Source of the DNA: a virus
DNA: 49,809 bases
Strand: one strand, 5' to 3'
IMG/VR virus record: IMGVR_UViG_3300005518_000006
Span: 1-49,809 of that record
Shown: one piece after another, positions 6,673 to 46,366 of the stretch
Layout: every line of letters begins with the position of its first letter
How positions within the stretch are numbered: the stretch's first letter is position 1
Notes under the pieces: model-generated
The model's database searches: none
The model's input: only the letters and a program-made list of their open reading frames with translations
Told to the model about the DNA's origin: nothing
Translations under genes and position numbers: made by a program

Positions 6673-6955
6673 GCCCCCTCCGCACTCCTCATTTCATGCG
6701 GTTGTTTGAGTACGCTACGACCGGGGTAGGCGCGCCTCCAAGAAATCTGACGTTACATCTTGGTCACGGGGGGTTTCGGATCCCACGAACACGGCTAGTG
6801 TTCGGCGAAGATCGGTCCAAGAAAACGCTTGCTTCCTGTAGGTCACGGGTGGTCCTCTTACACTCGTCTTTCCTTCCCTACAAGCGTTTCCGGGACCTCC
6901 GAGCAAGTCCGGCTGGGGGCCGGCAGGCCCCCCAGACAAGGGGAAGTGAAGGAAG
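6673..6955. promoter_or_regulatory. Divergent promoter and leader region
   Basis: This 283-base gap separates the leftward operon from the rightward set. For the leftward side, TTGGAG (6736-6741 on the minus strand) and TAGCGT (6712-6717) are spaced 18 bases apart, a plausible sigma-70 promoter. The rightward side contains the perfect stem CGAACAC/GTGTTCG at 6786-6804, and a GC-rich hairpin at 6913-6934 just before the first gene. The region ends with the inverted repeat AGTTGCCTCAGGCAA at the first start codon. The rightward promoter is not clear; TGAGTACGCT near 6708-6717 is a weak extended -10 candidate. Confidence 0.55.
6913..6934 (+). terminator. GC-rich hairpin in the leader of the rightward genes
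   Basis: CTGGGGGCC and GGCCCCCCAG form a stem with a very short loop, without a clear T-run. It lies about 20 bases before the first rightward gene, so it may attenuate transcription into that set or shape its leader. Confidence 0.5.
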
Positions 6956-19439: not shown

Positions 19440-19513
19440 TGCGTCCCCTCGGATTCGAACCGAGGACCCACGGATTAAGAGTCCGTTGCTCTGCGCAACT
19501 GAGCTAGAGACGC
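19440..19513 (-). tRNA. tRNA-Lys(CTT)
   Basis: The minus strand folds as a complete cloverleaf. The acceptor stem is GCGTCTC with GGGACGC, the D arm is TAGCTCAGTTGCGCAGAGCA, the anticodon loop ACTCTTAA carries CTT, and the T arm contains GGTTCGAATCC. The discriminator is A and no CCA is encoded (the sequence continues CCCT). It lies between the scaffold and the 282-aa virion gene, inside the leftward transcript. CTT reads AAG, the preferred lysine codon in high-GC genes. Confidence 0.92.
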
Positions 19514-29735: not shown

Positions 29736-29809
29736 TAGCGGAGACGGGATTCGAACCCGTGACCTTCGGCTTATGAGGCCGACGTGCTACCTAGCTGCAC
29801 TACTCCGCG
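29736..29809 (-). tRNA. tRNA-Met(CAT)
   Basis: The cloverleaf is complete: acceptor CGCGGAG/CTCCGCT, anticodon loop CTCATAA with CAT, stem TCGGC/GCCGA and T arm GGGTTCGAATCCC. The first pair is C1 with U72, a mismatch. Initiator tRNAs carry a C1-A72 mismatch and three G-C pairs in the anticodon stem. The stem here is not of that type, so elongator tRNA-Met with an odd first pair is more likely. A tRNA-Ile2 (lysidine-modified CAT) is a third possibility. Confidence 0.88.
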
Positions 29810-29852
29810 TCGCGGTTGGGCACCGTACCTACGAGAGGGTGCCGCAACCTCG

Positions 29853-29925
29853 CTGACCTTTCAGGGATCGAACCTGAAACCCCCGGATTAACAATCCGAT
29901 GCTCTGCCTGTTGAGCTAAAGGTCA
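29853..29925 (-). tRNA. tRNA-Asn(GTT)
   Basis: The minus strand folds with acceptor TGACCTT/AAGGTCA, D arm TAGCTCAACAGGCAGAGCA, anticodon GTT in ATTGTTAAT and T arm AGGTTCGATCCCT. The discriminator is G and no CCA is encoded. It lies in the tRNA cluster between the tail spike and the small virion genes. Confidence 0.92.
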
Positions 29926-29965
29926 TCGCGGGGAAGGCCGACGCAATGTCTGCACCTTCCCCTCG

Positions 29966-30039
29966 TCGGGATGACAGGACTTGAACCTGCAACTTCCTGG
30001 ATCCAAACCAGGCACTCTTCCAAATTGAGCTACACCCCA
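29966..30039 (-). tRNA. tRNA-Pro(TGG)
   Basis: The minus strand folds with acceptor TGGGGTG/CATCCCG (a G-T pair and a terminal T-G pair), D arm TAGCTCAATTTGGAAGAGTG, anticodon stem CCTGG/CCAGG with loop TTTGGAT (TGG) and T arm GCAGGTTCAAGTCCTGT. The discriminator is A. It reads CCA and probably CCG by wobble. It is the first tRNA after the spike gene in the direction of transcription. Confidence 0.9.
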
Positions 30040-35921: not shown

Positions 35922-35979
35922 AACCACTCCTGACAGGGAGGACCCCGTCCAGGGGGCTAGCAGGGATAACTACTAGGGG

Positions 35980-36253: not shown

Positions 36254-36487
36254 GGTTGCCTACGGCAACCTCGTATAGCCTCTGACCTGGGCTTTCACGG
36301 AGAATGTAACGATTCGGTAACAGACCCGAACGACATCGCAGCACGGGCCCCGAACGTAAGCACCCAATTAGCCAGACACTCATGACAAGAGTCAGAGCAG
36401 TTAGCGCCGGCCGAGTTAAAAATGTGGGTCGATCGTTGCCTCAGGCAACAGTTGCCGACAGCAACGGATGTGGTTGCCACAGGCAAC
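36254..36487. repeat. GTTGCC-N3-GGCAAC inverted repeats
   Basis: Perfect inverted repeats occur at 36254-36270 (7-bp arms, centre TAC), 36435-36449 (centre TCA) and 36473-36487 (centre ACA), with a 5-bp-arm variant at 36451-36465 (GTTGC/GCAAC). The last three are packed within 53 bases. A half-copy is at 36589-36600. Related copies lie at 6467, 6955 and 11740. They look like binding sites for a dimeric protein. Confidence 0.75.
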
Positions 36488-37085: not shown

Positions 37086-37130
37086 CAAAGCCGATGAGCG
37101 GCTTTGTTCGTTGAATGGGGAGTGGTGGAA
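37086..37130 (+). promoter_or_regulatory. Start-associated module A (before 37131)
   Basis: The hairpin CAAAGCCG/CGGCTTTG (37086-37106) is followed by ATGGGGAGTGGTGGAA (37115-37130), which ends at the ATG. This is the first of seven near-identical modules; GGGGAG is the Shine-Dalgarno site. Confidence 0.7.
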
Positions 37131-37334
37131 ATGGCAGATCACGGCTTGGAAATCGCGGAGTTGCACGCGTTGCCTGCTGGCACGGAGTTGCATTACACGA
37201 ATTGGCCGGGGCGCCCGAGTGTGCCAGTGAAGTTGTTGAACCGGGACGGGAATGTCCAGTTCGCCGATGGGCACACGCTTTACGCGTTCGCTGACGAGTT
37301 GTCTCGTGAACCGCGCGCCGGGTTGGGTGAGTGA
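37131..37334 (+). CDS. Hypothetical protein, first gene of accessory region (67 aa)
   Basis: The ATG at 37131 directly follows the start-associated sequence. The protein reads MADHGLEIAELHALPAGTEL and then NWPGRPSVPVKLLNRDGNVQ. A small alpha/beta fold is likely. Function is unknown. Confidence 0.7.
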   Translation: MADHGLEIAELHALPAGTELHYTNWPGRPSVPVKLLNRDGNVQFADGHTLYAFADELSREPRAGLGE

Positions 37335-37335
37335 G

Positions 37336-37596
37336 ATGCGGATTGGCAAGCGTGAGTCGTACCGCGAAGAGATCAACTCGGACGGATTCCACGTGTCGCG
37401 TTGGTTGCGCATCATCGGTGACTACAAATACTCGTTTACGCGGGTTGAGGATGCGAACCGTAACGCTTACGTGGATGTCTGGATCATGTGGCCGGAAGGT
37501 GGGGATTATGTCCGCACCTTCCACGGTAAGACGACGCGGCCGAAGACAGGTGTTCAGGTGTTTTCGGAGGAACTGGGCAAGTTGATTCGGTTCTGA
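37336..37596 (+). CDS. Hypothetical protein (86 aa)
   Basis: The ATG at 37336 (or a GTG at 37327 overlapping the previous stop) begins MRIGKRESYREEINSDGFHV. The protein is mixed alpha/beta and ends in KTGVQVFSEELGKLIRF. It is transcribed with its upstream gene. No family is recognised. Confidence 0.68.
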   Translation: MRIGKRESYREEINSDGFHVSRWLRIIGDYKYSFTRVEDANRNAYVDVWIMWPEGGDYVRTFHGKTTRPKTGVQVFSEELGKLIRF

Positions 37597-37606
37597 GTGA
37601 CTGTTG

Positions 37607-37678
37607 AGCCCACCCCTGCGGGGGTGGGCTGACTCAGCTACTCATGATGGGTAGTGGTGGATAAGGGGAGTGGTTGAG
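37607..37678 (+). promoter_or_regulatory. Start-associated module B (before 37679)
   Basis: A strong stem AGCCCACCCC/GGGGTGGGCT (37607-37630) is followed by the inverted repeat CTACTCA-TGA-TGGGTAG (37638-37654) and AAGGGGAGTGGTTGAG (37663-37678), which abuts the ATG. The first stem could terminate transcripts from the upstream gene. Confidence 0.75.
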
Positions 37679-38080
37679 ATGGGCGAGTTTGTGGTTGTTC
37701 AGGTCAAGTCTGCGAAGACTGATGACAAGTGGATGGACTACTCGCGGTGTAGCGCGCGGAATGCTGTGGAGTTCCTGGTGTCGTCGTTTGCTGACAGCAA
37801 GGGGACGGAGTTCCGTGCGAAGCACTGGATTACCGGGAACCTGTTGAACAAGGCTCAGCTTGAGAGCATGACTGTGGAGCCTGGTGCGTTCGCGGAGCGT
37901 GAGCCTCGGGAGTGGTGGCGGGTGACGATGACGTGGGAGGGCGAGTCTTGCCCTTCCGATTCGACGTACAGCCCGTGGATCTACAAGCTGCAGGAGGCAA
38001 TCAGCGAGTTGCACCGGCGCGGTTTGAATGCCGGTCGTGGTGATGTGATGCGTATCGAAATCGCAGTAGAGGAGGTGTGA
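37679..38080 (+). CDS. Hypothetical protein (133 aa)
   Basis: The ATG at 37679 begins MGEFVVVQVKSAKTDDKWMD. The sequence looks strand-rich at first (EWWRVTMTWEGESCPSDSTY) and helical at the end (IYKLQEAISELHRRGLNAGR). It may be an early host-takeover protein. No known motif was recognised. Confidence 0.7.
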   Translation: MGEFVVVQVKSAKTDDKWMDYSRCSARNAVEFLVSSFADSKGTEFRAKHWITGNLLNKAQLESMTVEPGAFAEREPREWWRVTMTWEGESCPSDSTYSPWIYKLQEAISELHRRGLNAGRGDVMRIEIAVEEV

Positions 38081-38083
38081 CCG

Positions 38084-38344
38084 ATGGCCACTGTTCTCTA
38101 TGACGGGCTGAAGGTGTGTCACTCGTGCGCGAACTTGATCGCGAACGGTGAGGTATTCGATGAGTCCGGCGATATCTCGGAGGCGCATGCGGCGAGGATG
38201 GTTGCGCACATGGCACGCAATCTGGGCGGTTTGGTGTTGGCGTGCGGGAATTGCCACTGTGACGAGTCGGTGTCTAGCTCGGAGTGTGATGGGTGTGGCG
38301 ATACTGCGCAGGGGTGGCGGCATCCTGCTGCAATCTTGGGCTGA
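38084..38344 (+). CDS. Zinc-ribbon protein (86 aa)
   Basis: The start is the ATG at 38084, four bases after the previous stop. The N terminus has CHSCANLIANGEV and the C-terminal half LACGNCHCDE and CDGCGDTAQGWRH, so two or more zinc sites. From memory the pattern (CHSCANLIANGE, CGNC, CDGCGDTA.GWRH) recurs in actinophage genomes. It may act as a small adaptor or nucleic-acid binder; function is unknown. Confidence 0.72.
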   Translation: MATVLYDGLKVCHSCANLIANGEVFDESGDISEAHAARMVAHMARNLGGLVLACGNCHCDESVSSSECDGCGDTAQGWRHPAAILG

Positions 38345-38353
38345 GCGATCGTT

Positions 38354-38430
38354 GAGAGTGCGGGCCTTCGGGCCCGTGTCTCTCACTCAGTTGCTTAGAG
38401 CAAGTAACTGGATTATGGGGAGTGGTTAGT
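38354..38430 (+). promoter_or_regulatory. Start-associated module C (before 38431)
   Basis: The stem GAGAG..GCGGGCC-TTCG-GGCCCGT..CTCTC (38354-38384) is followed by the 9-bp stem CAGTTGCTT/AAGTAACTG (38388-38410, one G-U pair) and ATGGGGAGTGGTTAGT (38415-38430). The TTCG tetraloop stem is unusually stable. Confidence 0.75.
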
Positions 38431-38616
38431 ATGATGGTTGTGGATGGCAAGGGTGTTGCGTCACGGTTGAACTACCGGCCGGATCACGTGCACATTACGG
38501 AGCCGTTTCGTCACGTGCTCTGGTGTCGCGTGCCCTGGGCCCGCTGTCAGGGTGACGTACCGCGTACGTCGTTTGTTGTGACGGAACCGGAGTGTGACTG
38601 GCGTGAGGTCCAGTGA
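38431..38616 (+). CDS. Hypothetical protein (61 aa)
   Basis: The ATG at 38431 starts MMVVDGKGVASRLNYRPDHV. The protein contains HVLWCRVPWARCQGD with two Cys. The stop overlaps the next gene as GTGA. No family is recognised. Confidence 0.62.
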   Translation: MMVVDGKGVASRLNYRPDHVHITEPFRHVLWCRVPWARCQGDVPRTSFVVTEPECDWREVQ

Positions 38617-38774
38617 AGCGCTGGGAGGTGTACGAACGGCGCACGGGACGGCTGGTGTGTATCGGTTCGCGCCGGTACACGCGTCAGGTGTGCAAGGGCA
38701 GGCCCGAGTATGCGCGGCACAAGGTGGAGATCGCGCAGAGCCTGTTTGAGGGGATGGGTGAGACGTTGCCGTGA
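38613..38774 (+). CDS. Basic protein (53 aa)
   Basis: The GTG at 38613 overlaps the previous stop. The sequence MKRWEVYERRTGRLVCIGSR then RYTRQVCKGRPEYARHKVEI is basic; two Cys are present. The stop overlaps the next GTG. Function is unknown. Confidence 0.62.
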   Translation: MKRWEVYERRTGRLVCIGSRRYTRQVCKGRPEYARHKVEIAQSLFEGMGETLP

Positions 38775-38947
38775 GCAAATATCCGTATCCCGGGTATCTG
38801 ACCCCTCGGGAAATGTTTATGTGGTGGGATTGGGAGGATCATCCCTCGGGCCCGCCGTTGGATGATCCTCGGGTGAGTTGGGCTACAGAGGCACAGTGGC
38901 GCGCGTTCGTGGAGTATGCGAAACGCGAGCGTGAGCGGCGTGAGTGA
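38771..38947 (+). CDS. Trp-rich acidic/basic protein (58 aa)
   Basis: The GTG at 38771 overlaps the previous TGA. The protein has an N-terminal MSKYPYPGYLTPREMFMWWD and a C-terminal charged helix (WRAFVEYAKRERERRE). No family is recognised. Confidence 0.6.
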   Translation: MSKYPYPGYLTPREMFMWWDWEDHPSGPPLDDPRVSWATEAQWRAFVEYAKRERERRE

Positions 38948-38959
38948 CGGAGGAGGGTT

Positions 38960-39031
38960 CACAGCCTGCGGGCTGTGGGCCCGATCAGCTACTCAGGTTG
39001 AGTGGTGTTGAGGTATGGGGAGTGGTTAGAG
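38960..39031 (+). promoter_or_regulatory. Start-associated module D (before 39032)
   Basis: The stem CACAGCC/GGCTGTG (38960-38977) is followed by the perfect inverted repeat ACTCA-GGT-TGAGT (38991-39003) and ATGGGGAGTGGTTAGAG (39015-39031), which abuts the ATG. Confidence 0.75.
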
Positions 39032-39373
39032 ATGACGCGTGAATTCAGTCAAATTGAGGTAGGTCGTCACGCGCACATGTCCTCGGCTGAGGTTGAGGAG
39101 ATGTGCAGTGAGCGCGTAGGAGTGGAAGAGATCACGGATGCGTGCGCTGTCACGATCGCATCGTGGTACCAGTCGCCGGGGCCTACGGGTATCGCTTTCG
39201 CTGGGCTTGCTTCGTCAGGTTCGGCGGATGTTGACACGCTGTTGGAGAACATCTTCTACGCGCGGAACAACGATGTTCCGGCGTTGCCGGAGGGCGAGCG
39301 GGAAGCGGCGAAGGTGCAGCTTGACATGCTCGCTACTTGGGCGCTGCGGAAGGTGGACGGCAGTTCTGACTGA
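39032..39373 (+). CDS. Hypothetical protein (113 aa)
   Basis: The ATG at 39032 starts MTREFSQIEVGRHAHMSSAE. The protein is mostly helical (SADVDTLLENIFYARNNDVP; REAAKVQLDMLATWALRKVD), soluble and slightly acidic. It could be an early regulatory or inhibitory protein. No family is recognised. Confidence 0.68.
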   Translation: MTREFSQIEVGRHAHMSSAEVEEMCSERVGVEEITDACAVTIASWYQSPGPTGIAFAGLASSGSADVDTLLENIFYARNNDVPALPEGEREAAKVQLDMLATWALRKVDGSSD

Positions 39374-39378
39374 CGGTC

Positions 39379-39450
39379 GGCGACACGTCTTGTACGTGTC
39401 GCCTGTCAGCTAGTCAGGGTGGCTAGTGAGATAGATGGGGAGTGGTTGTT
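39379..39450 (+). promoter_or_regulatory. Start-associated module E (before 39451)
   Basis: A perfect 10-bp stem GGCGACACGT/ACGTGTCGCC (39379-39403) is followed by CTAGTCA-GGG-TGGCTAG (39410-39426, one T-G pair) and ATGGGGAGTGGTTGTT (39435-39450). Confidence 0.76.
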
Positions 39451-39987
39451 GTGAGCAACGTTGTTTGGTCGGCAGAGAACGGCTGGCACGACGGAGAAAA
39501 GGTCGATGTCCGAGTCGAGCACGGGAAAATCGTGGCTGAGAGCAACGAAAAGGGTTTCCCGGAGTTGGCTGCCGAGTTCACGGCATGGAAGCGTCAGCGT
39601 CAGGAGTACGGCGAGACTGACGGGATGCGCGTCGGGCCCACTTCGGGGCAGTGGGAGGCTTCGGACGATCGGGCGTTCGGCATGCTTGAGGAGTACGCCG
39701 ACAAGGTGCGCGCGTTGAACGCCGCTGTGAGTGACTTGGAAATGCTCGATGGAACCATGTGGGGTGACGTGGCCGAGCACTTCGGTTGCACGGAAGCTTC
39801 CGTGCTCGGTGACCTGTTGGTGACTCTCGGCCTGGTGCACGACGCGGAAATGTTGATGACGTGCCACTACTACGCGGATGATGTGGATGAGGAGCAAGAG
39901 GTGGAGATGCACACTGACTCGGAAGGTGTGCGGGATGAGCGGATTCGTCCAAGCATCCTGTTTGGTGACAGTGAACCGTCGTACTGA
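39451..39987 (+). CDS. Acidic hypothetical protein (178 aa)
   Basis: The GTG at 39451 starts VSNVVWSAENGWHDGEKVDV. The protein is acidic, helix-rich (DRAFGMLEEYADKVRALNAA), with Cys residues (CHYYADDVDEEQEVEM). A helical middle resembles no family that I know. The C terminus is disordered and acidic. Confidence 0.68.
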   Translation: MSNVVWSAENGWHDGEKVDVRVEHGKIVAESNEKGFPELAAEFTAWKRQRQEYGETDGMRVGPTSGQWEASDDRAFGMLEEYADKVRALNAAVSDLEMLDGTMWGDVAEHFGCTEASVLGDLLVTLGLVHDAEMLMTCHYYADDVDEEQEVEMHTDSEGVRDERIRPSILFGDSEPSY

Positions 39988-40001
39988 GTGACGTTGCCTC
40001 T

Positions 40002-40065
40002 GGCACCGGCCCGGCCGGTGCCTTTGGTTGCGCAACTCAGCGCACGCATATGGGGAGTGGTACAG
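40002..40065 (+). promoter_or_regulatory. Start-associated module F (before 40066)
   Basis: The stem GGCACCGGC/GCCGGTGCC (40002-40022) is followed by the palindrome GTTGCGCAAC (40027-40036) and ATGGGGAGTGGTACAG (40050-40065). A half GTTGCC repeat (39993-39998) precedes the stem. Confidence 0.75.
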
Positions 40066-40704
40066 ATGGCAGAGTGGAAAGAGATCGCGCGTGACCTGTC
40101 CGGGTTCGTGGCTACGTTCCTGTCTGAAAAGACGGGTGACACGTGGTCGGTGGATCAGGGCAAGGAACACGACTGGTCTGTGTGGTTGGTTCGCACGGAT
40201 GCCGAGGGCAAGGAGTCGGGGCGCGTGTTCGTGCGGCCGGACGACAAAGACAAGGAACGGATCATGTTCTCGGCTACGTATCCGGCGAACACGGTCTACC
40301 CGCGTCCGAGGCGCGTACAGATCACGTGCGACCGTTTCAAGGATGTTGACAAGATCGCAGGCGACATTCTGCGTCGGCTTCTGCCCGACGCTGAAGCGGA
40401 GTGGACCCGTGTTGCCGAGGGCAACGCTTTGGATGTGGAGCAACTGAAGGCGCGCGAGGCCGCATACGAATCACTGAGCGCGGTTGTCCCGTTGGATCGT
40501 GGACGGGAGGAGCCGAAGGTCAGCGACACGCAATGGGTGGCGGACTGGCGCGGCCCGAAGGGCCCGGCTGACCACCACGTGACGGCAGAAGTCAAGGCGA
40601 ACGTGTGGGGCAGCGTCTTCGATGTCAAGTTGGCGAATCTGACAATCGACCAGGTGCACCAGATCCTGTGGGTTCTCAAAGGCGGCCGGAACACGGGCGT
40701 GTAA
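40066..40704 (+). CDS. Hypothetical protein (212 aa)
   Basis: The ATG at 40066 starts MAEWKEIARDLSGFVATFLS. The first part is strand-rich (WSVDQGKEHDWSVWLVRTDA; ERIMFSATYPANTVYPRPRR). The C-terminal part has WGSVFDVKLANLTIDQVHQI, a likely helix-strand module. The protein is soluble. No motif identifies it. Confidence 0.7.
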   Translation: MAEWKEIARDLSGFVATFLSEKTGDTWSVDQGKEHDWSVWLVRTDAEGKESGRVFVRPDDKDKERIMFSATYPANTVYPRPRRVQITCDRFKDVDKIAGDILRRLLPDAEAEWTRVAEGNALDVEQLKAREAAYESLSAVVPLDRGREEPKVSDTQWVADWRGPKGPADHHVTAEVKANVWGSVFDVKLANLTIDQVHQILWVLKGGRNTGV

Positions 40705-40848
40705 CGGACTCTCGACAGAGAGTCAAGCACCATGGTTGTATGTGTCGCTTCGGGCCGGTCCAACTCCCTCACGGGTTGGACCGTGCCCGTGCCGGTGCAT
40801 CACCAGGCCGGCGCATTAGGTAAAGCGCCTACGTAAGGGGTGGTTGTA
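40705..40848 (+). promoter_or_regulatory. Start-associated region G with hairpins (before 40849)
   Basis: GGTCCAAC/GTTGGACC (around 40758-40782) is a strong stem; the repeat TAGG/CCTA lies further on. The degenerate start-associated sequence AAGGGGTGGTTGTA (40835-40848) precedes the GTG. No gene is visible on either strand of this 144-base gap. Confidence 0.6.
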
Positions 40849-41876: not shown

Positions 41877-41892
41877 CCCCGGTGGGGTTGAG

Positions 41893-41930
41893 AGGGACAC
41901 GCGCTACTTATCGGGGGTGCGCGTGTCCCT
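41893..41930 (+). terminator. Terminator after the 41715 gene
   Basis: The perfect 12-bp stem AGGGACACGCGC/GCGCGTGTCCCT is followed by TCTCTGTTTC. It separates the accessory set from the following small-gene block. Confidence 0.8.
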
Positions 41931-41991
41931 TCTCTGTTTCACCGGTAGATCAACGGATGCATTCAAGGGGGATTCATCAAAGGGGTTGGTT

Positions 41992-45620: not shown

Positions 45621-46366
45621 TTCGCGCCATCCCCGTCCACGGGCGTAACCGCGCCCTCGATCCGGGAAAGCGTGTCGTGGAACTCCTTGTACCGCGCCAA
45701 CGACACCCGATCCTGCTCATGTAGCCGATCCGCGAGATCGGAATACCGCGCCGTCTCCGCATCCGCGTGCGTCTTCAACGCCGCAAGAATCTCCTGCACT
45801 TCAGCCTCCGTCATTCCCTCGATTGCATCCTTGCTGTGGCCCTCCGAGAACCACGGCACAAGTACCGCGTTGAACTGCCGGATCCGATCCGGCCCCGGGC
45901 ACGTCTTCGCCTTCGGCGTCCACGGACCAGGCGCACCCCACATCGTGTGGTAACCCACGCCCGGATCCTGCGGATCCCGGCACTTCCGCAACGGGAAGTT
46001 GTGCGTCTCGCTCAACCACTTCAACAGCGTCTTGATCGCGGCGAGCTGTAGGTCGTTCCACTCGCCGGCATCCTTGCCCTGCGTCTCGATCGACACATAG
46101 CCGAAGCGCTGAAGACCCCGCATAAACGAGTTCGCCTTCAGGTTCGCATCGGCCTCGTACGCCGTGTCCCGGTACTGCTCGATAGCTCCGTCTTTCCGGA
46201 CGAAGAAGTGCGACTCCACACCATCCGACTTCCCCGAAGAGAAGTACTCGAACAGAGACTTGTTGTCTCCCGAGTCAACGTGCAAGATCGCGCCCATGGC
46301 AATGATCGGTGGATCATTGGGGCCGGGGGCAATCACTTTCTTGATCGCTAGCGGATACCAAGCCAT
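45617..46366 (-). CDS. Endolysin, N-acetylmuramoyl-L-alanine amidase (249 aa)
   Basis: The Amidase_2 domain fills about residues 1-170. The likely zinc ligands are H29 in GAILHVDSG, H140 in GYHTMWG and C156 in KTCPGPD, with E94 in VSIETQGKDAGEW as catalytic or support residue. It cuts the bond between muramic acid and the stem peptide. The C-terminal ~75 residues are a coiled helix (EAEVQEILAALKTHADAETA) rather than a known wall-binding domain. It has no signal peptide and depends on the following holin. Confidence 0.92.
   Translation of the reverse strand: MAWYPLAIKKVIAPGPNDPPIIAMGAILHVDSGDNKSLFEYFSSGKSDGVESHFFVRKDGAIEQYRDTAYEADANLKANSFMRGLQRFGYVSIETQGKDAGEWNDLQLAAIKTLLKWLSETHNFPLRKCRDPQDPGVGYHTMWGAPGPWTPKAKTCPGPDRIRQFNAVLVPWFSEGHSKDAIEGMTEAEVQEILAALKTHADAETARYSDLADRLHEQDRVSLARYKEFHDTLSRIEGAVTPVDGDGAK

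Follow-up and report, generated by a model that had tools for sequence, protein, structure and literature searches.

In the present study, a 49,809-nucleotide stretch of viral DNA (IMG/VR record IMGVR_UViG_3300005518_000006; hereafter the window, from phage W) was analyzed for a motif that precedes the starts of a run, or array, of small accessory genes beside the terminase gene. By its position, the motif is a start-associated sequence (SAS) in the cluster K sense. Comparison of the sequences indicates that this SAS forms only the 3'-terminal part of a structured module between cistrons, with a predicted pseudoknot, which the original prediction, made from the letters of the window, had missed. 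The module is present in W, in the related contigs G7 (IMGVR_UViG_3300048996_000028, 49.4 kb) and G6, and in BI-type Streptomyces phages (BI; n = 11, mostly Beephvirinae, including FlowerPower, Manuel and Immanuel3); the terminase of W is 81% identical to that of G7, 60% to that of G6 and about 39% to those of the three named Streptomyces phages. SASs were previously listed for two phage clusters; the present phages are a third SAS group, in which a covarying intercistronic pseudoknot is predicted beside the SAS. The module was not found reported in the open papers covered, including work on Streptomyces phages. Herein, we propose, with about even confidence, that the module is a post-transcriptional element of translation initiation and insulation, in which the knot would close the upstream cistron and the SAS would recruit ribosomes.

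The module lies between cistrons and is mostly 64-105 nt long. The stop codon is followed by a strong hairpin (H1), a second, small hairpin (H2), the purine-rich SAS and finally the start codon. Segment A, which in most cases runs from the base before the upstream stop codon to 1-3 bases beyond it, is predicted to pair with A', the loop of H2, whose arms are B and B'. This A-B-A'-B' pairing, with H1 as an extra hairpin and with covariation, corresponds to a three-stemmed pseudoknot in the W, G7 and BI sequences, and a short single-stranded linker is predicted between H2 and the SAS. The elements upstream of the SAS in W, where genes were called with a simple coding-score script, are as follows:

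37086 to 37106, plus strand: hairpin CAAAGCCG-atgag-CGGCTTTG, 5' of the first SAS; no local pseudoknot partner was found, and there is no upstream cistron
37593 to 37600, plus strand: module 1, segment A (C-TGA-GT...), at the stop codon of gene 37336-37596
37607 to 37630, plus strand: module 1, H1, AGCCCACCCC-TGCG-GGGGTGGGCT
37637 to 37655, plus strand: module 1, H2 with ACTCA, the most degenerate among the five W modules
38341 to 38348, plus strand: module 2, segment A, CTGAGCGA, at the stop codon of gene 38084-38344
38354 to 38384, plus strand: module 2, H1 with a cUUCGg loop
38388 to 38410, plus strand: module 2, H2, TTGC-TTAGA-GCAA; loop CTTAG pairs with CTGAG of segment A
38941 to 38947, plus strand: module 3, segment A, TGAGTGA, at the stop codon of open reading frame 38771-38947
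38955 to 38982, plus strand: module 3, H1
38985 to 39001, plus strand: module 3, H2, TCAGCT-ACTCA-GGTTGA; the loop pairs with segment A
39365 to 39373, plus strand: module 4, segment A, TCTGACTGA, the end of gene 39032-39373 including its stop
39379 to 39403, plus strand: module 4, H1, GGCGACACGT-CTTGT-ACGTGTCGCC
39408 to 39424, plus strand: module 4, H2, AGCTA-GTCAGGG-TGGCT; AGTCAGG pairs with TCTGACT
39984 to 39991, plus strand: module 5, segment A, CTGAGTGA, at the stop codon of gene 39451-39987
40002 to 40022, plus strand: module 5, H1, GGCACCGGC-CCG-GCCGGTGCC
40029 to 40044, plus strand: module 5, H2, TGCGC-AACTCA-GCGCA; ACTCAG pairs with CTGAGT

The stop region and the H2 loop are complementary in changing sequences: TGAGT/ACTCA and TCTGACT/AGTCAGG in W; TGAAC/GTTCA, TGATC/GATCA, TGAGC/GCTCA and TGAGT/ACTCA in G7; and CTAGCA/TGCTAG and CTAGTG/CACTAG at TAG stops in BI. 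Where the stop codon lies further upstream (CCGTGC/GCACGG, GTGAGC/GCTCAC), the partner sits after the stop, shortly before H1, so that what stays fixed is segment A ahead of H1. This complementarity was assessed in several ways. First, in 49 unique modules from the 11 Streptomyces phages, the A:loop pairing score (the best contiguous pairing, selected identically for real and permuted data) was 692.6, compared with 562 +/- 18 when A was shuffled among modules (0/500 permutations as high). These modules are not independent because the phages are related, which is corrected in part by a family-level test: with 25 gene-family representatives, grouped via common protein 3-mers and including a few that are still distant relatives of one another, the score was 368.7 compared with 289.6 +/- 12.2 (0/1000). 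Second, in W and G7 together, when A was restricted to the stop region and the loop to 4-7 nt, the score was 213.6, compared with 174 +/- 9 for permuted data (1/2000) and 142.6 +/- 9 for the stop regions of structural genes (0/2000). A looser test with A unconfined gave 39/500, most A segments being alike there; the narrower test was chosen after this looser result, and the BI result therefore carries more weight. In G6, 10/500 was obtained with six modules. Third, compensatory changes were observed in two orthologue families (CTAGTG/CACTAG, CCGAGT/ACTCGG and CCAGTG/CACTGG in one; CTGAAC/GTTCAG and CTGAGC/GCTTAG in the other). Fourth, the geometry is constrained, as the A-H1 distance minus the H1-H2 distance is 3-7 nt in 41 of 47 modules (permuted mean 24%, maximum 46%).

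The pairing signal was absent from the controls, namely the minus-strand genes of W and G7 (307/500 and 417/500), the SAS sites of the cluster K phage Adephagia (233/500) and those of the cluster EF phage AnnaSerena (335/500, with only 3 sites scorable). The loop cUNCGg caps 25 of 64 H1 hairpins and none in shuffles, and isolated non-Watson-Crick pairs in the sense hairpins are more often G.T (33) than A.C (16); both are signs of an RNA formed from the sense strand. The heuristic used to select the hairpins fails on some modules. An unconstrained genome-wide scan for the knot was too noisy to be used alone: its four best hits on the plus strand of G7 were array modules, and W was not outstanding. 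An Rfam search of the window, part of G7 and part of Manuel returned tRNAs only, with no RNA family at gathering score.

The SAS copies of W, together with one degenerate relative, are as follows:

37115 to 37127, plus strand: copy 1, ATGGGGAGTGGTG, before start 37131 of the first gene of the array
37663 to 37675, plus strand: copy 2, AAGGGGAGTGGTT, before start 37679
38415 to 38427, plus strand: copy 3, ATGGGGAGTGGTT, before start 38431
39015 to 39027, plus strand: copy 4, ATGGGGAGTGGTT, before start 39032
39435 to 39447, plus strand: copy 5, ATGGGGAGTGGTT, before GTG start 39451
40050 to 40062, plus strand: copy 6, ATGGGGAGTGGTA, before start 40066
40835 to 40848, plus strand: degenerate SAS-like AAGGGGTGGTTGTA, before GTG 40849; a convincing pseudoknot was not found

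The motif is present as five copies of ATGGGGAGTGGT and one of AAGGGGAGTGGTT, whose 3' ends lie 3-5 nt before the called starts from 37131 to 40066, in agreement with the original prediction, which had placed the motif before 37131, 38431, 39032, 39451 and 40066 and a variant before 37679; all of these are called gene starts. Matches to ATGGGGAGTGGTT with at most one mismatch, at 37115, 37663, 38415, 39015, 39435 and 40050, are all on the plus strand, and none was found elsewhere in the 49.8-kb window; an additional near-copy, ATGGGTAGTGGTG, lies at 37647. Enrichment over shuffled upstream regions was likewise borne out, as the 11-mers TGGGGAGTGGT and ATGGGGAGTGG are each common to 5 of 71 upstream regions, compared with a maximum of 3 in 300 dinucleotide shuffles of the same regions. 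The copy proposed at the terminase start (GTCAGGAGTGGTT, 35922-35934, minus strand) is weak: it has 3 mismatches and is within chance, because the whole window holds 19 matches to ATGGGGAGTGGTT at up to 3 mismatches, compared with 11.8 +/- 3.8 expected. Degenerate copies had also been suggested before 40849 and 41992. The former, AAGGGGTGGTTGTA, is probably a real variant, because the orthologous gene of G7 has AAAAGGGGTGGTTGTT before 44390; the latter, AAAGGGGTTGGTT, gained no further support.

When related phages were compared, an SAS of another sequence was observed at the same place. G7 carries its small-gene run at the same place as W, with most gaps of 72-87 nt and the start sequences TAGGGAGAGGGAG and AGGGATAAGGGG, and the exact motif ATGGGGAGTGGTT occurs in it once, only before the first array gene (record positions about 39855-39867; L141 bases about 6855-6867). 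The BI phages have the lineage-specific ACAAGGGGAGAGA in the same position. Most W array genes are without a detectable counterpart in G7, so that the SAS is retained across the differing genes of one genome, and it differs between relatives. For the array DNA, no similarity to annotated phages was found. A search of viral contigs for the W SAS followed by ATG gave 119 stretches, with a single match per locus among those listed; no further W-type array was found in this way. Two uncultivated IMG/VR contigs, L167 and L230, carry BI-type SAS arrays with apparently the same module (for example, TAGCA/TGCTA before position 8861 of L167, reversed strand), and these arrays could enlarge the covariation data.

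In our proposal, the run of small accessory genes would be polycistronic, with the RNA module separating each unit from the next. No sigma-70-like promoter was found in W between 36000 and 42500, and the array is thus most simply one transcript. The pseudoknot would seal the upstream cistron at its end. The SAS, an unusually long, genome-specific Shine-Dalgarno-like purine stretch, would be presented unpaired beside a compact structure, where a 30S subunit or a phage RNA-binding protein could dock; each unit might then be translated independently although on one transcript. Within one genome the SAS is uniform, and between relatives it diverges, a pattern suggestive of co-evolution with a single trans-acting partner; this partner might be no more than the anti-Shine-Dalgarno sequence of 16S rRNA. 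Several observations weigh against this proposal. The first array genes of W and G7 have an SAS and a hairpin with no local knot found, so that the knot is dispensable for SAS use as such, which weakens a pure role as a translation enhancer. The A:A' pairing is weak or missing in the modules of W 37679, G7 40439 and several BI genes for which the finder failed; the A:A' helix often has at least one base in common with the H2 stem, and hence the two helices may be alternatives rather than one knot. Moreover, the z-scores of minimum free energy average only about -1.7 to -2.5, the comparison of G.U with A.C within the A:A' helix is not one-sided, in about half of the BI modules A directly follows the stop instead of overlapping it, and H1 may be a terminator. 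Judged by sequence, the knot may mainly aid initiation, as in timP and tisB, mark a processing site or respond to the terminating ribosome.

The distribution of the modules bears on the main rival explanation, mRNA punctuation, according to which a nuclease would cut the linker between H2 and the SAS, H1 and the pseudoknot would cap the upstream 3' end, and the SAS would lie in a short downstream leader. The array of W is divided into the units 37131+37336, 37679+38084, 38431+38613 and onward, 39032, 39451 and 40066, separated by gaps of 77-86 nt; the modules are found at these boundaries only and not between closely spaced genes (gaps of 1, 3 and -4). The orthologues W 37336/G7 40098 and W 38084/G7 41137 have a module only where the gene opens a unit. 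Together with the lack of detected promoters in the array and its modules, this is consistent with punctuation, and a 3'-end element would also predict that the first gene of the array has an SAS without a pseudoknot. However, the gap after the last array gene is without a clear pseudoknot, a conserved cleavage sequence was not noticed in the linker, and the strict retention of the SAS is left unexplained; we regard punctuation as a tentative possibility. The early genes of T7 are separated by RNase III sites, which are long bulged hairpins. These sites are likewise structured, intercistronic and located in an early region, but are without the pseudoknot or the SAS of the module; by analogy, processing may occur in W.

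The overlap of segment A with the stop codon (5/5 W, 9/9 G7 and 12/23 BI modules scored) raises another explanation, stop-codon-dependent translational coupling. The terminating ribosome might melt A:A', shift the fold of H2 and thereby switch initiation at the SAS, or the knot might keep the stop close to the following start, with the ribosome passed on across about 80 nt. Such a bridge would be useful since reinitiation is otherwise almost gone at a distance of about 20 nt (PMC10666635), which makes the stop-codon link the most interesting option. Nearly half of the scored BI modules, however, have A beside the stop; the flanking genes are mostly small, lack an assigned function and are not known to require fixed ratios, and the SAS is not sequestered by upstream sequence. 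Its pairing to upstream sequence is no more than chance (z about 0), and a riboswitch-like state was not seen; by eye, AGCTACTC in two W modules can be paired with GAGTGGTT. Coupling is thus considered unlikely. It is doubtful, too, that these sequences represent a novel type of phage intercistronic RNA for long-range, pseudoknot-mediated translational coupling. In such an RNA, the stop region would pair with a hairpin loop adjacent to the following ribosome-binding site, the terminating ribosome would control the next gene over about 80 nt and a genome-specific SAS would be read by a dedicated partner.

The relation of the SAS to the ribosome is less clear than had been claimed. The original prediction considered the motif to be far beyond a ribosome site, and its conservation does extend beyond the Shine-Dalgarno core; however, 11 of the 13 positions of ATGGGGAGTGGTT can pair, with wobbles and as read by eye, with the full extended anti-Shine-Dalgarno sequence. 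This and the following figures assume a host with the usual actinobacterial 16S 3' end. With complementarity to that end at the right distance, the SAS corresponds to a Shine-Dalgarno sequence, and the predicted duplex averages -13.1 kcal/mol at array genes, compared with -8.8 +/- 2.4 kcal/mol at other (minus-strand) genes; the array pairing exceeds that of shuffled versions of its own bases by only about 1 standard deviation. This strong pairing, as well as the resemblance of H1 to a GC-rich terminator stem with stable tetraloops, would fit an assembly of ordinary parts, with H1 as intrinsic terminator, the SAS as strong Shine-Dalgarno sequence and the pseudoknot as incidental. Yet, among the array H1 hairpins, only 40002-40022 passes a terminator scan, the others being without a recognizable U-run; no promoters follow H1, and the permutation, orthologue covariation and geometry results are contrary to an incidental knot. 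We therefore consider this explanation very improbable.

Compared with the known SAS groups, the cluster K SAS (consensus GGGATAGGAGCCC, 13 nt; PMC3203893) and that of W are both near-invariant and asymmetric, lie a few nt before the starts of many non-structural genes with an upstream gap and are conserved beyond a Shine-Dalgarno-like core, W having six shuffle-enriched copies. All SAS genes of W are in the accessory run beside the terminase, and these non-structural genes have upstream gaps over 50 bp. None of ATGGGGAGTGGTT in W, TAGGGAGAGGGAG and AGGGATAAGGGG in G7 and ACAAGGGGAGAGA in BI matches the cluster K consensus within 2 mismatches. The original prediction was thus right that the W motif differs in sequence from that of cluster K while sharing its placement, but W is not a lone case, as G7 and BI have SASs of their own. 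The extended SAS (ESAS) of cluster K is a 17-bp inverted repeat that overlaps -35/-10-like hexamers and shows no pseudoknot signal, in contrast to H1 and the pseudoknotted H2 in W, and it is now read as carrying promoters (PMC11373665). The position of the module upstream of the SAS, identical to that of the ESAS, might therefore suggest promoters or operators, and in Adephagia the pair TTGACN-N16-19-TANNNT is found 5' of 7 of 16 SAS sites. The same pair, however, occurs in 0 of 15 W and G7 modules and in 3 of 49 BI modules, and the sequences of H1 and H2 vary freely provided that pairing persists. The promoter or ESAS reading was rejected as extremely improbable, and the module appears to be a different thing at the same place. 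In cluster EF Microbacterium phages, the SAS GGGAAAGGACCCC (PMC7302621) shares the position, the high conservation and a weakly conserved upstream element, but it has another sequence, with an ESAS centred on GTAGAG and no pseudoknot signal (3 sites scored). Integron attC sites were set aside by inspection: RYYYAAC/GTTRRRY cores were not seen to be kept in the G7 and BI modules, and no integron integrase was present in the BI gene tables examined.

Pseudoknots that affect initiation have been described elsewhere. In timP and tisB, pseudoknots 5' of the ribosome-binding site are required for translation through standby (PMC11228461), and these are likewise located upstream of that site; but they are single 5'-leader elements with a sequestered ribosome-binding site, whereas the module is intercistronic and recurs before 5-10 genes in each genome, frequently makes use of the stop codon of the upstream gene and does not sequester the SAS. 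The preQ1-II and fluoride riboswitches and the coronavirus frameshift element (PMC11262651) likewise combine a pseudoknot with an embedded stem-loop. In the module, the first loop, which separates A from B, holds the extra hairpin, and no slippery site or ligand core was recognized.

Other features were also observed around the array. Ten of the proteins encoded in the array region have no Pfam match above cut-off and only PHROG matches of unknown function, and therefore give no functional clue. In the non-coding interval between the terminase gene and the array, the short palindrome GTTGCCNNNGGCAAC is repeated at 36255-36269, 36435-36449, 36451-36465 and 36473-36487, with one arm imperfect; they may be sites of regulator binding or replication. 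An inverted repeat in non-coding DNA, GAGAGGGACACGC ... GCGTGTCCCTTCTCTGTTTCACCGGTA, has almost the same sequence in W (41880-41960) and in G7 (just before record position 45930), and the flanking proteins are only about 35-55% identical between W and G7. Four tRNA genes of W (29736-30039 and 19440-19513, minus strand), three of them clustered, lie among the structural genes, as do about 21 tRNA genes in FlowerPower.

Since 2011, SASs have been on record for two phage clusters, with their mechanism unsettled, and the third group includes laboratory-cultivable Streptomyces Beephvirinae. The predicted covarying pseudoknot beside the SAS is a strong structural clue, and it makes the role of the SAS directly testable via paired mutations of A and A'. 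If the link to the stop codon is functional, the module would offer a new means of coupling or insulating adjacent genes.

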